From Phyllobacterium sp. YR531 (GTDB lineage Bacteria; Pseudomonadota; Alphaproteobacteria; Rhizobiales; Rhizobiaceae), in assembly GCF_000282595.1 (NCBI RefSeq), contig NZ_AKIZ01000038.1:124001-188000 (forward strand): a DNA stretch of 64,000 nt, read 5' to 3'. Both the position numbers and the translations under genes were made by a program. The notes under the pieces are model-generated. The model did not search any database and was not told the origin of the DNA. It saw nothing but the letters and a program-made list of their open reading frames with translations. Below, in pieces: positions 18,375 to 21,970 of the stretch (within the stretch, counting starts at the first letter, position 1; each line of letters starts with the position of its first letter).

Positions 18375-18394
18375 TTCAATTCCGGGTGACACCT

Positions 18395-19189
18395 ATGCTT
18401 GAAAAGCGCCTTTCCGCTTATCCCTTCGCCAGAGTCTTTATGCTGGCGACTGCGGTATGCGCGTTAAGCATACCTGCATGGTCTTCAGGCTCAAGCAACC
18501 CGGTACAGCTCGCGTTAAGCGAACTCAAGAAAGAAGAATTGCCGCAGGCAACGGAACCCACACAGCCAAACAGCAATCAGCCCGCGAGTGAAACACATAC
18601 ACCTCCTCCGGCCGCCACAGAAAAGCCCGCTGCAGCACCGGCCGAGCCAGCTACAGAAGATAGTGAGGGCACTGCCAAAGCGACCAATCCGGCAATGCCG
18701 AATGCCAAGGATGGTGCAGAAACTCCTGAGGTCCAATATGATCTCAGCAAACTGCCCTTTCCGGTGCAAAAAATGCACCAGCTGATCCTGGAAGCTGCAA
18801 AATCTGGCAATATTGATGCGCTGCGTCCGCTTATCGGATCTGGCGATGACGTAACCATGCTTTCGCTTACTGAAGTTGATGGTGACCCCCTCGCCTATCT
18901 GAAAAGCCAGGCAGGTGATCCGGATGGTCAGGAAATCCTGGCTATTCTGGTGGATGTGCTGGAATCCGGCTATGTGCATCTTGATGCAGGCACTGCAGAT
19001 GAGTTGTATGTCTGGCCGTACTTCTTCGCCTATCCTTTAGACAAACTTGATGCGAAGCAAAAAGTTGAAATGTTTCAAATCGTGACCGCAGGCGATTATG
19101 ATGAAATGAAGCAGTTCGGCACCTATGTGTTCTACCGTTTGGGCATTACGCCAAAGGGTCGCTGGCGCTTTTTCGTAACCGGCGACTGA
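18395..19189 (+). CDS. Secreted protein with Pro/Ala-rich linker, unknown function
   Basis: 264 residues from ATG 18395 (an in-frame GTG at 18386 is possible). A signal peptide (FARVFMLATAVCALSIPAWSSG) leads to a low-complexity Pro/Thr/Glu/Ala stretch (about 50-105), which is typical of periplasmic linkers, then a folded C-terminal domain (about 115-264) that begins 'PFPVQKMHQLILEAAKSGNIDALRPLI' like an ankyrin/helical repeat and ends 'GITPKGRWRFFVTGD'. Found in Brucellaceae as a hypothetical protein, function unknown. Confidence 0.75.
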   Translation: MLEKRLSAYPFARVFMLATAVCALSIPAWSSGSSNPVQLALSELKKEELPQATEPTQPNSNQPASETHTPPPAATEKPAAAPAEPATEDSEGTAKATNPAMPNAKDGAETPEVQYDLSKLPFPVQKMHQLILEAAKSGNIDALRPLIGSGDDVTMLSLTEVDGDPLAYLKSQAGDPDGQEILAILVDVLESGYVHLDAGTADELYVWPYFFAYPLDKLDAKQKVEMFQIVTAGDYDEMKQFGTYVFYRLGITPKGRWRFFVTGD

Positions 19190-19214: not shown

Positions 19215-19241
19215 TGTCACATCCGGACGGGCTGTCTCGTC
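19215..19241 (+). promoter_or_regulatory. ECF41-type promoter upstream of the AhpD-like gene
   Basis: TGTCACA at 19215-19221 and CGTC at 19238-19241 are separated by exactly 16 bases. This matches the ECF41 -35/-10 consensus (TGTCACA, N16, CGTC). It ends 39 bases before the start codon of the AhpD-like gene at 19281, leaving a short 5' leader with AGGAG at 19269-19273. The motif is seen; its use by the sigma factor encoded downstream is inferred from the conserved ECF41 arrangement. Confidence 0.8.
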
Positions 19242-19280
19242 TCGTGTTCAGGCAAATAAATGCCGAACAGGAGAAAGATC

Positions 19281-19736
19281 ATGAAAGCCAGATTAAACCC
19301 CATCAGCTTTGACGCCATCAAGCCAATGCTTATCATGAGTGACAGCGTTGAAAGCGACGGCGTCGAGAAAAGCCTGCAAGAACTCGTCAAGATGCGGGCA
19401 TCGCAAATCAATGGCTGCGCCTATTGCCTTGATATGCACTCCAAGGACGCACGCAAGCATGGGGAAACTGAACAGCGCATTTATTTGCTGAACGGCTGGA
19501 GAGAATCGCCACTATATAGTGAGCGTGAGCGCGCGGCATTGGCATGGACAGAGGCATTGACCCTCGTCTCCCAAACCCATGCGCCAGACAGTGATTATGA
19601 AGTTTTGAAGCTACATTTCACGGAGGAGGAGATTGTGAAGCTGACCATGCTTATCGTCACCATCAACGGCTGGAATCGCATCGCGATCGGCTTCCGCTCC
19701 ATCCATCCGGTAGCAAAAGCCAGTGTCGCAGCCTGA
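19281..19736 (+). CDS. Carboxymuconolactone decarboxylase/AhpD-like protein
   Basis: 151 residues from ATG 19281 (AGGAG 7 bases before; the ATG at 19260 has no site). It has the AhpD-like C-x-x-C-x-x-x-H motif (NGCAYCLDMHSKDARKHGE, about residues 45-60) used in peroxidase or disulfide chemistry. This is the 'COE' partner type that is usually found beside ECF41 sigma genes. It overlaps the sigma factor gene by 14 bases and carries the ECF41 promoter upstream, so the pair should be co-expressed and positively autoregulated. Confidence 0.92.
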   Translation: MKARLNPISFDAIKPMLIMSDSVESDGVEKSLQELVKMRASQINGCAYCLDMHSKDARKHGETEQRIYLLNGWRESPLYSERERAALAWTEALTLVSQTHAPDSDYEVLKLHFTEEEIVKLTMLIVTINGWNRIAIGFRSIHPVAKASVAA

Positions 19737-20613
19737 CAGTACGGTCGACACGTTCAGCCGCCTCAGACCGCGACTGACCCGGATAGCATATCGCATGCTC
19801 GGTTCGGTTACTGAGGCGGAGGACATTGTTCAGGAGGGCTTTATTCGTTGGCACCAGACCGAAAGGTCAGAGGTGCGTAACGAAGAAGCCTACCTTGTCC
19901 GCATAATTACGCGCCTGTGCCTCGATCATCTGAAGTCGGCCCGGGTTCGCAGGGAAAAATATGTAGGTGACTGGCTGCCGGAACCAATATTCAATCCGAC
20001 TGAAGAAGAACCCGAAGGCGATGTTACCCTGACCCTGATGATAGCGCTCGAACGGCTTTCGCCACTTGAGCGAGCAGCATTTCTTCTGCACGATGTGTTT
20101 GGTCAGGACTTCAAACAGATTGCCGACACTATTGGACGGGATGCTGCAACATGCCGCCAACTGGCAAGTCGAGCGCGCAATCACGTGCAAAAGGCCAAGC
20201 CGCGTTTTCCGGTTTCGGATGAACAAGGCAGCAAGATTGCGGCTGCTTTTTTCAACGCCTCACGCACGGGAGATACAAAGACACTTCAAAGTCTGCTTGC
20301 CGATGATGTCGTCATGTATGCAGATGGCGGTGGTGTTAGGCTCTCGGTCATCAATCCCATTCATACGGCGCAAGATATCGCACGGTTCTTTGAAGGAATT
20401 TCGCGACGCGCAGAATTCAAGCTTCCGACATTGCTGCATGAGGGGCTCATTGATGGACTGCATGGTTTCGCGACGATGGAGTCCGACGATCTGCCGCAAA
20501 CAACCGCCCTCGAAATCGAGAACGGGAAGATCACGGCTATCTATGTGATGCGTAACCCTGAAAAACTGCAGCATTTGCAATTTGCCAAATCGCCAGCAAA
20601 AGGTACAGCATGA
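19723..20613 (+). CDS. RNA polymerase ECF sigma factor, ECF41 (SigJ-like) with SnoaL-like C-terminal domain
   Basis: 296 residues. Sigma2 region at about 10-75 (RLTRIAYRMLGSVTEAEDIVQ), sigma4 at about 105-160 (RLSPLERAAFLLHDVFGQDF), and a C-terminal SnoaL/NTF2-like domain. The C-terminal domain carries ECF41 hallmarks: D-G-G-G at 201-204 (here DGGGV rather than DGGGK) and N-P-E-K-L at 278-282 (consensus N-P-D-K-L/V). In this family the extension is a built-in regulator in place of a separate anti-sigma factor. Start is GTG at 19723, inside the end of the AhpD-like gene. Confidence 0.94.
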   Translation: MSQPDSTVDTFSRLRPRLTRIAYRMLGSVTEAEDIVQEGFIRWHQTERSEVRNEEAYLVRIITRLCLDHLKSARVRREKYVGDWLPEPIFNPTEEEPEGDVTLTLMIALERLSPLERAAFLLHDVFGQDFKQIADTIGRDAATCRQLASRARNHVQKAKPRFPVSDEQGSKIAAAFFNASRTGDTKTLQSLLADDVVMYADGGGVRLSVINPIHTAQDIARFFEGISRRAEFKLPTLLHEGLIDGLHGFATMESDDLPQTTALEIENGKITAIYVMRNPEKLQHLQFAKSPAKGTA

Positions 20614-20641: not shown

Positions 20642-21430
20642 ATGAGAACGATGACGATGTATCAGGTGGACGCGTTTACCACCGAGCTTTTCCGCGGTAA
20701 TCCTGCTGCCGTTTTGGTATTGGATGACTGGCTTCCAGTGGAAACCATGCAGAATATCGCAGCCGAGAACAATCTGGCGGAAACTGCATTCTTGAAGCGC
20801 AATGTAAACGGTTGGGATTTGCGCTGGTTCACGCCGGTACATGAAGTGAATTTTTGTGGTCACGCCACTCTTGCTTCCTCGCACGTGTTGCTACACGAGC
20901 TTGGCGTAGAGGGTGAGCTGGCATTTGAGACGAGAGTTGGCACTCTCCGCGTCAACAAAAAGGATGCCGGTTATCAGCTGGATTTTCCAAGCTTTGCACC
21001 AGAACCGGTAACAGACCTTCTCCCCGCGCTCAAAGACATAACGGGACGTGACAACATTATCGCATTCCAGAACTTCGAGAATGTTTTCGTTGAACTTGAG
21101 GACGAGCAGGCAGTGATCGATTTCATTCCGGATTTGCCAAAGATAGCCAGACTCGATCCTTTCGGATTAGTAATCACCGGCAAAGGCAATGAGCATGATT
21201 TCGTATCACGCTATTTCGTTCCACATGCCGGGATTCCGGAGGATCCTGTAACAGGATCGATTCACTCGACGCTTGTGCCCTATTGGGCGGCAAAGCTTGG
21301 CGAGAACCACCTATCGGCCTACCAACGCTCGCAACGTGGCGGGCATCTTCTTTGCGAGCTAGCCGGTGATCGTGTTCTGATCACTGGTTCCGCAGTGACC
21401 TTCATGAAGGCGGAGATTTATTTGCCGTAA
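20642..21430 (+). CDS. PhzF-family isomerase/epimerase-like protein
   Basis: 262 residues with the diaminopimelate-epimerase-like fold of PhzF: 'VDAFTTELFRGNPAAVLVL', active-site E in 'NNLAETAFL' and 'NFCGHATLASSHVLL', and a mid-protein 'GIPEDPVTGSIH'. The biochemical substrate is unknown; members isomerise small carboxylic acids. Begins 28 bases after the ECF41 gene (AAGGTG before ATG 20642), so it might belong to the ECF41 regulon. Converges on BrnA. Confidence 0.92.
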   Translation: MRTMTMYQVDAFTTELFRGNPAAVLVLDDWLPVETMQNIAAENNLAETAFLKRNVNGWDLRWFTPVHEVNFCGHATLASSHVLLHELGVEGELAFETRVGTLRVNKKDAGYQLDFPSFAPEPVTDLLPALKDITGRDNIIAFQNFENVFVELEDEQAVIDFIPDLPKIARLDPFGLVITGKGNEHDFVSRYFVPHAGIPEDPVTGSIHSTLVPYWAAKLGENHLSAYQRSQRGGHLLCELAGDRVLITGSAVTFMKAEIYLP

Positions 21431-21441
21431 GTCTCAGGCCA

Positions 21442-21723
21442 TCATTTGCTTTTTCTGTGCGCTTCCACATAAGCCCGCAGCACCGCGTTCATGCGTGTAA
21501 GATGGCCTTTTCCGTGTGCTTTGAACCAGTCAATGATGTCCGTGTCCAATCGCAAATGGACAGAAGTTTTGCCTTTAGGCAAAATAACACGGGCGCTTTC
21601 CCAAAAGTCCTCTCCCAAGGATTCAGCTTCAGGTGCGCAATCATATTCCGCTTGCCCTTCTTTATCTGATGTCCTCGCAATTTCACTGAGAGAGTATTTT
21701 GCGGTAGTAGATTTCTTGCTCAT
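21442..21723 (-). CDS. brnA: BrnA family antitoxin
   Basis: 93 residues; the C-terminal half has the BrnA ribbon-helix-helix-like motif 'KTSVHLRLDTDIIDWFKAHGKGHLTRMNAVLRAYV', which binds DNA and neutralises BrnT. The N-terminal 45 residues are acidic and would contact the toxin. It overlaps the 3' end of brnT by 41 bases, giving toxin-first order as usual for BrnT/BrnA. Confidence 0.92.
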   Translation of the reverse strand: MSKKSTTAKYSLSEIARTSDKEGQAEYDCAPEAESLGEDFWESARVILPKGKTSVHLRLDTDIIDWFKAHGKGHLTRMNAVLRAYVEAHRKSK

Positions 21724-21970
21724 TTTTACCTGCCTTTTGGGCGCTGATGATACGTATCGTTGTCTTGTTTCGTCGCGTGTAAACGACGCGGTAAAGTACC
21801 CGGCCCAGCGCTATAATACGAATCTCGCCATAATCCTCACGGTCATCAACTCGCTCTAAAATCTCATTGGCAAAAATCTTCGCAGCATTCTTAAATGAAA
21901 CTCCGTGTTTCAGTAAATTGGACGCAGCCTTGTGCACGTCCCATTCGAACTGCAATTCCAAGTTCAGCAA
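21683..21970 (-). CDS. brnT: BrnT family toxin (RelE-like RNase)
   Basis: 95 residues with the BrnT signature F-E-W-D-x-x-K-A-x-x-N-x-x-K-H-G-V-S-F, then 'RED(Y)GEIRIIALGRV' and the C-terminal 'RIISAQKAGKNEQEIYY'. BrnT is a ribosome-independent mRNA-cleaving RelE-fold toxin. There is no ATG in frame at the N-terminus: the start is TTG at 21968-21970, with AAAGG 9 bases upstream. The weak start may keep toxin level low relative to antitoxin. Start choice is less certain than the identity. Confidence 0.92.
   Translation of the reverse strand: MLNLELQFEWDVHKAASNLLKHGVSFKNAAKIFANEILERVDDREDYGEIRIIALGRVLYRVVYTRRNKTTIRIISAQKAGKNEQEIYYRKILSQ

Follow-up and report, generated by a model that had tools for sequence, protein, structure and literature searches.

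An ECF41 sigma factor operon in Phyllobacterium sp. YR531 with a promoter conserved across the genus

We analyzed a 64,000-nt stretch of the Phyllobacterium sp. YR531 genome (the window; GCF_000282595.1, NZ_AKIZ01000038.1, positions 124,001-188,000, forward strand), to which all coordinates refer. It very likely carries an ECF41 module, whose sigma factor would both have its brake built in and transcribe its own CMD-sigma operon. Recognition of the promoter by this sigma factor, the brake and the loop would follow from what is described for related factors in the relevant parts of PMC3426412, PMC6180224 and PMC8999054, and gating by a signal is likewise suggested by analogy; the genes, their motifs and the conservation of the promoter were observed directly. 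The operon is real, well explained and ordinary, a known kind of ECF41 unit and a close cousin of that in Sinorhizobium meliloti. Small new points are a genus-wide DGGG[V/I/N/Q/L]R motif in the sigma factor, a conserved leader, and an unlinked site upstream of an epimerase-type gene in one species.

In the proposed scheme, RNA polymerase carrying the ECF41 sigma factor would start at TGTCACA-N16-CGTC, and the transcript would cover both the peroxidase-like CMD gene and the gene of the sigma factor itself; in this genome it probably extends through PhzF. The SnoaL-like extension would keep the sigma factor at low activity via the sigma2-sigma4 linker (WLPEP), an autoinhibition that a signal, probably a small molecule, would relieve. 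By transcribing its own gene, the sigma factor would create a positive loop confined to one operon. The overlap of the two genes and the GTG start may also indicate translational coupling that holds sigma output low.

Gene content and ECF41 assignment

The sequence-only reading had proposed an order of TGTCACA-N16-CGTC, 39 nt, an AhpD-like gene, an overlapping sigma gene, 28 nt and a PhzF gene, and its coordinates were confirmed (Table 1). A 16-nt spacer separates TGTCACA from CGTC, and the 39 bases between CGTC and the CMD ATG at 19281 (19242-19280) include AGGAG at 19269-19273. An ATG at 19260 was rejected as the CMD start because an extra base in the leader of 12 of 16 genus rows puts that site out of the CMD frame. 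The CMD and sigma open reading frames (ORFs) overlap by 14 nt, with the GTG start of the sigma gene (19723) placed within the end of the CMD gene; GTG occupies the same place in 12 of 17 genus rows, and the other five are printed from a later codon.

Table 1. Features of the operon, in window coordinates, with the basis of each assignment
Feature	Position	Strand	Basis
-35 element TGTCACA	19215..19221	+	Sequence; consensus in PMC3426412; TGTCACR in 20/20 genus genomes
-10 element CGTC, with conserved CT before it (19236-19237)	19238..19241	+	Sequence; promoters of 111 relatives
Predicted transcription start	19250 (A), or 19251 (G)	+	Analogy with S. meliloti SMb20029 (PMC6180224, Table 1)
Leader block conserved in the genus, consensus TTGTGTnCAGGCAACTGAATGCC, with a possible GGCA/TGCC stem of 4 bp	19242..19264	+	13 genus rows
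CMD/AhpD-like gene (COE partner), 151 aa, C46-x2-C49-x3-H53	19281..19736	+	Pfam, TIGR00778
ECF41 sigma factor gene, 296 aa, GTG start	19723..20613	+	Pfam, NCBIfam, PDB match
WLPEP codons, residues 84-88, sigma2-sigma4 linker motif	19972..19986	+	Sequence; PMC3426412
SnoaL-like C-terminal extension, codons 174-282	20242..20568	+	Sub-cut-off SnoaL_2; SigJ alignment
DGGGV, residues 201-205	20323-20337	+	Sequence
NPEKL, residues 278-282	20554-20568	+	Sequence
PhzF-family isomerase gene, probably co-transcribed	20642..21430	+	Pfam PhzC-PhzF 194.4 bits; 28-nt gap

The protein encoded by the first gene bears out the proposed AhpD-like partner: it matches Pfam CMD (PF02627; 77.4 bits, cut-off 23) and TIGR00778 ahpD_dom (64.9 bits, cut-off 27.8), and its C-x2-C-x3-H residues C46, C49 and H53 are identical in 125 of 125 CMD rows. 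It was assigned as CMD/AhpD-like and not as AhpD proper (TIGR00777, 29.8 bits; curated cut-off 191.95).

The ECF41 identity of the second protein was upheld by the presence of sigma2 and sigma4 only, the WLPEP linker, a C-terminal extension and the adjacent COE gene. Pfam Sigma70_r2 (61 bits) and Sigma70_r4_2 (44.1 bits) both scored above their cut-offs, and no further sigma region was found. The protein matched NCBIfam SigJ (NF007214, 378.3 bits, cut-off 271) and fell below the cut-off for NCBIfam SigX4 (314.1 vs 323.25 bits); the nearest solved structure by sequence is SigJ 5xe7 (E 2.1e-42, sigma residues 8-283). The extension runs for about 130 residues beyond sigma4. SnoaL_2 reached 23.9 bits there (E 6.3e-5), under the Pfam cut-off of 27, and hence the label "SnoaL-like" is weaker than the presence of the extension itself. 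A predicted structure model of moderate confidence (pLDDT 72.4, pTM 0.49, residues 204-210 below 50) has helices and strands across residues 166-282. Linker residues W84 and P86 were invariant in all 118 rows of a table that omits L130-L133.

YR531 encodes one ECF41 gene, and the next sigma matches in its genome are only 26% and 25% identical. Among 16 loci with related sigma factors, 14 (12 Phyllobacterium records and two Rhizobiales isolates) share 71-86% identity, and the remaining two are actinobacterial (36-37%). L130, L132 and L133 (and L131, which lacks a strict promoter) combine ECF41-like sigma factors with a divergent CMD gene; the extensions of L130-L133 are without DGGG and NPxKL, and two of these sigma factors occur in one genus. 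Three other loci (L084, L096 and L097) have two ECF41-type promoters approximately 2.0 and 1.4 kb 5' of the sigma gene. Close to the farther promoter is a distant CMD gene (42-43% identical), which suggests a longer ECF41 cluster.

A Pfam scan of the neighbors of the sigma gene (CMD, PhzF, BrnA/BrnT and a 267-aa protein) found no recognizable separate anti-sigma gene beside it. The 267-aa ORF, which has no Pfam match, lies on the same strand just 5' of the promoter (18386-19189). The BrnT toxin/BrnA antitoxin pair (21442-21970, minus strand) is directly behind PhzF and convergent to it.

In 12 of the 20 genus genomes, PhzF itself immediately follows the sigma gene. The other eight were counted merely as non-adjacent because their loci extend only about 100-150 bases past the sigma gene. 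In L016-L018, the two genes are separated by 864-979 bases that contain a reverse-strand ORF, and PhzF was not found within 3.5 kb downstream in L006, L010 and L013. The relatives fetched from other genera, many with only 1.5 kb of flank, showed no PhzF match close to the sigma gene. No terminator-like site is listed in the 28-base gap between sigma and PhzF genes in the window. PhzF is likely to be co-transcribed with the sigma gene here, and this arrangement is so far confined to part of the genus. The sequence-only reading suggested that the regulon may extend to PhzF, which is plausible only within this species and some members of the genus.

Promoter conservation, start site and leader

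The motif by itself proves little, because its genome counts equal those of a reversed control. A loose form matched once in the 64-kb window (shuffles averaged 0.07 matches, and 7 of 100 contained at least one). Across the whole genome, this form gave four sites, as did the reversed pattern, and a longer form allowing one mismatch gave 10 against 10, the operon site being the sole perfect one. Such counts would fit a chance match, with the operon read from another promoter. The case for the promoter hence rests on conservation among relatives. A refined motif derived from genus loci (TGTCACRT-N12-TCTCGTCT, 16-nt spacer, at most one mismatch) was found in all 20 genus genomes, with 22 sites in total against none for the reversed control; 20 of the 22 sites precede both CMD and sigma genes, and their location relative to this operon is constant. 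Sixteen of the 20 genus loci had served to refine the motif, and the four independent ones (L217, L218, L229 and L230) match too. Moreover, the elements are nearly invariant within the genus (0.07 differences per site in the -35 and 0.00 in the -10 element) in contrast to 0.61 for the 40 bases preceding them (13 rows). The site is also identical to the mapped promoters described in the relevant parts of PMC3426412 and PMC6180224. A chance site is thus extremely improbable, and the assignment as the cognate promoter, which in the window matches the published ECF41 consensus exactly, holds.

The same pairing of promoter and operon was found beyond the genus. Among 165 rows (window included), the promoter occurs within 800 bases before the sigma gene in 106 of 112 with CMD directly upstream (spacer of 16 in 94 and of 17 in 12). 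Where CMD is not directly upstream (53 rows), 19 have it. Another tally, covering 111 promoters from relatives, gave a spacer of 16 in 99 and 17 in 12; a T precedes CGTC in 105 and a C precedes that T in 94, and CGTC is followed by T at position 2 in 97 and G at position 3 in 94. Given the mapped promoters of relatives and this conservation, a self-targeting, co-transcribed module, as originally proposed, is likely.

A genome scan for further targets, suggested in the sequence-only reading, recovered the operon site, but no second target in the YR531 genome rises above the control. The three other loose matches were discarded, as the total was no higher than for the reversed pattern (4 vs 4): those in L002 and L004 are inside ORFs of 106 and 452 aa, and that in L001 has no ORF of at least 90 aa within 900 nt downstream. 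The operon agrees with the rule of one operon per ECF41 factor throughout a genus, and the refined promoter is specific enough for clean genome scans. Of the two refined-motif sites outside the operon, the one in L232, within ORFs on both strands, was taken as chance. The other gives Phyllobacterium calauticae (G349) a second ECF41-type site (L206:1501-1530 = G349:C41:39901-39930, minus strand), located on another contig 45 bases 5' of an unlinked NAD-dependent epimerase-type gene, a candidate target. The encoded protein matches Pfam Epimerase (64.2 bits), and the gene was found in one of 20 genus genomes (E 1e-15). Epimerases are one of three COE classes.

Transcription is predicted to start about 9 nt after CGTC, with A at 19250 or G at 19251 as the first base. 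This follows from the S. meliloti 39-mer printed in a table of PMC6180224, whose final base is a G nine positions past CGTC, and from the base at position 9, a purine in 102 of the 111 promoters (G in 78, A in 24). We took the last base of the 39-mer as the start, since rows ending in lower case suggest so (the bold mark is lost in the text version). A start 7 nt after CGTC, as first suggested, fits less well.

The region downstream of CGTC is also conserved. Differences per site across 13 non-redundant genus rows (L009, L011 and L015 were omitted as near-copies) were 0.15 at leader positions 1-9, 0.16 at positions 10-17 and 0.05 at positions 18-23, compared with 0.52 over the ten bases that open the spacer and with 0.39, 0.35 and 0.55 for first, second and third codon positions of CMD. 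The genus leader is nearly as conserved as the promoter itself. This contrast with third codon positions could indicate a second control element, either a hairpin at the 5' end of the RNA or a DNA operator, beyond the start region contacted by polymerase. The window leader folds well from 19242 (-14 kcal/mol, z -4.0, reached by 0 of 200 shuffles), and the structure drawn for it has 91% of cells paired, a share that drops to 28-56% when the structure is slid, as expected for one derived from the same sequences. However, the fold from 19242 takes in 8 nt upstream of the predicted start, and from 19250 the z-score is -1.1 (29 of 200 shuffles). Six folds of leaders from four named relatives and one isolate (L005, L007, L013, L016 and L018 twice) gave z-scores of -0.5 to +0.3, covariation was not above shuffles (292 of 500 reach it), the GGCA/TGCC stem being too nearly invariant to give any, and no Rfam match to the leader was found. 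An RNA hairpin is thus unsupported by fold energies, covariation and Rfam. The most divergent genus row (L030) also has a different leader.

Conservation in other genera bears on the same question. Rhizobium-type leaders (28 rows) differ at 0.16-0.18 per site at positions 1-17 and at 0.30 at positions 18-23, and two more genera keep less of the leader (0.17, 0.36 and 0.72 in g51, five rows; 0.35, 0.29 and 0.64 in g17, four rows). Polymerase contacts at the start would explain the part shared across genera. Overall, we consider a second control element in the leader unlikely.

Position 205 in the C-terminal extension

The sequence-only reading gave DGGGK and NPDKL as the C-terminal consensus motifs of ECF41 factors; the words DGGG and NPDKL are absent from the main text of PMC3426412. 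Alignment of the YR531 sigma factor with ECF41 proteins, a check put forward with the original proposal, recovered DGGG and NPxKL but not the Lys of DGGGK, which is Val here, whereas K or R is present at position 205 in 127 of 165 rows (K 115, R 12, other 38). According to the sequence-only reading, the DGGGV variant (Lys to Val) may affect the built-in regulatory domain. The variant is a lineage trait and does not mark a change in one gene: all 20 genus genomes have V, I, N, Q or L at residue 205, Arg comes next in every case, and promoter and partner are intact.

Changes at this residue were traced on two trees. The relatives fetched were part of the matches listed (80 places from one listing, and those with loci from others). 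L024-L027 and L029 were omitted because they come from contigs already represented by L005, L006, L009, L010 and L018, and L154, L155, L158 and L167 are duplicates. The first tree held 122 rows, and in it the 26 that lack the Lys (the genus and two other genera) formed one clade (support 100/98). A wider quick tree added 53 rows from the order and class and left out 10, giving the 165 rows counted above; those left out (L019, L020, L119, L123 and L128-L133) are long-branched or without DGGG, and include L020, with DGGG and no basic residue at 205 or 206, and four lacking DGGG. In this wider tree, position 205 changes between basic and non-basic at least six times on supported branches (nine by parsimony), and the 26 rows are split, although the splitting forks are weakly supported (38 to 84). 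A single event, which held in the 122-row tree, hence did not hold in the wider one.

The shared lack of Lys in the genus and two other genera, together with several further positions that differ between the Lys-less clade and its sister, may mean that this sigma factor is regulated differently from canonical ECF41 factors, for example through a looser latch or another ligand. We give this little credence, given the breakup of the clade and the repeated changes in the wider tree. Moreover, the promoter is kept in 34 of the 38 rows without a basic residue at 205, and the upstream CMD gene in 31. A basic residue at position 206 is present in 35 of these 38 rows, compared with 67 of the 127 with a basic 205, but a tree-aware independent-pairs test of the association was not significant. 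Nor is a basic residue always kept at one of the two positions, as L088, L091 and L092 (QV) and L020 (LA) have neither. Because of this test result and the three of 38 rows without both, a moved latch charge is only a suggestion. In the structure model, residue 205 is in a predicted loop with pLDDT below 50.

Combining both features, the Phyllobacterium module could be read as a two-layer switch, in which the basic latch residue has moved from 205 to 206 (DGGG[V/I]R) and the 23-nt leader controls the CMD-sigma-PhzF transcript. This reading is doubtful, more so than either feature taken separately, and we retain an ordinary ECF41 module with a fused brake. The repeated change of this Lys, mostly beside a basic next residue, nonetheless offers a natural set of variants for testing that brake.

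Relation to described ECF41 systems

Among the papers listed by a literature search, none dealt with this operon. ECF41 factors are described in the main text of PMC3426412 by a WLPEP linker, a C-terminal extension of about 100 residues and COE neighbors, with the promoter TGTCACA-n16-CGTC and the COE/ECF operon as the sole detectable target. According to the same text, truncation indicates that the extension sets ECF41 activity, COE-then-ECF in one direction accounts for 107 ECF41 loci (29%), and no reproducible phenotype is reported. The brake acts at the linker, as summarized in the relevant part of a review (PMC8999054). In the Rhodobacter sphaeroides RSP_0606-ecf41Rsp and Bacillus licheniformis ydfG/ecf41Bli systems, the promoter, the CMD target and the extension are similar to those here (relevant parts of PMC3426412). 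Control by the extension was shown there by truncation and is predicted here, and the B. licheniformis -10 element is TGTT, unlike CGTC in the window. Mycobacterium tuberculosis SigJ (5xe7) shares the linker motif and the C-terminal extension by sequence comparison, and its D-S-N-G-K aligns to D-G-G-G-V.

The closest described counterpart is the SMb20029-rpoE9 locus of S. meliloti (L053). In the part of PMC6180224 that deals with RpoE9, SMb20029 is its single target, with a mapped start at the promoter, on evidence from overexpression rather than native autoregulation. That locus lacks a PhzF match within 3.5 kb on each side, in contrast to YR531, and has DGGGKR in place of DGGGVR and a different leader. 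As in Phyllobacterium, a CMD gene is followed by the sigma gene under the same promoter with a 16-nt spacer, and the sigma factor and CMD protein are 58% and 59% identical, respectively, to those in the window.
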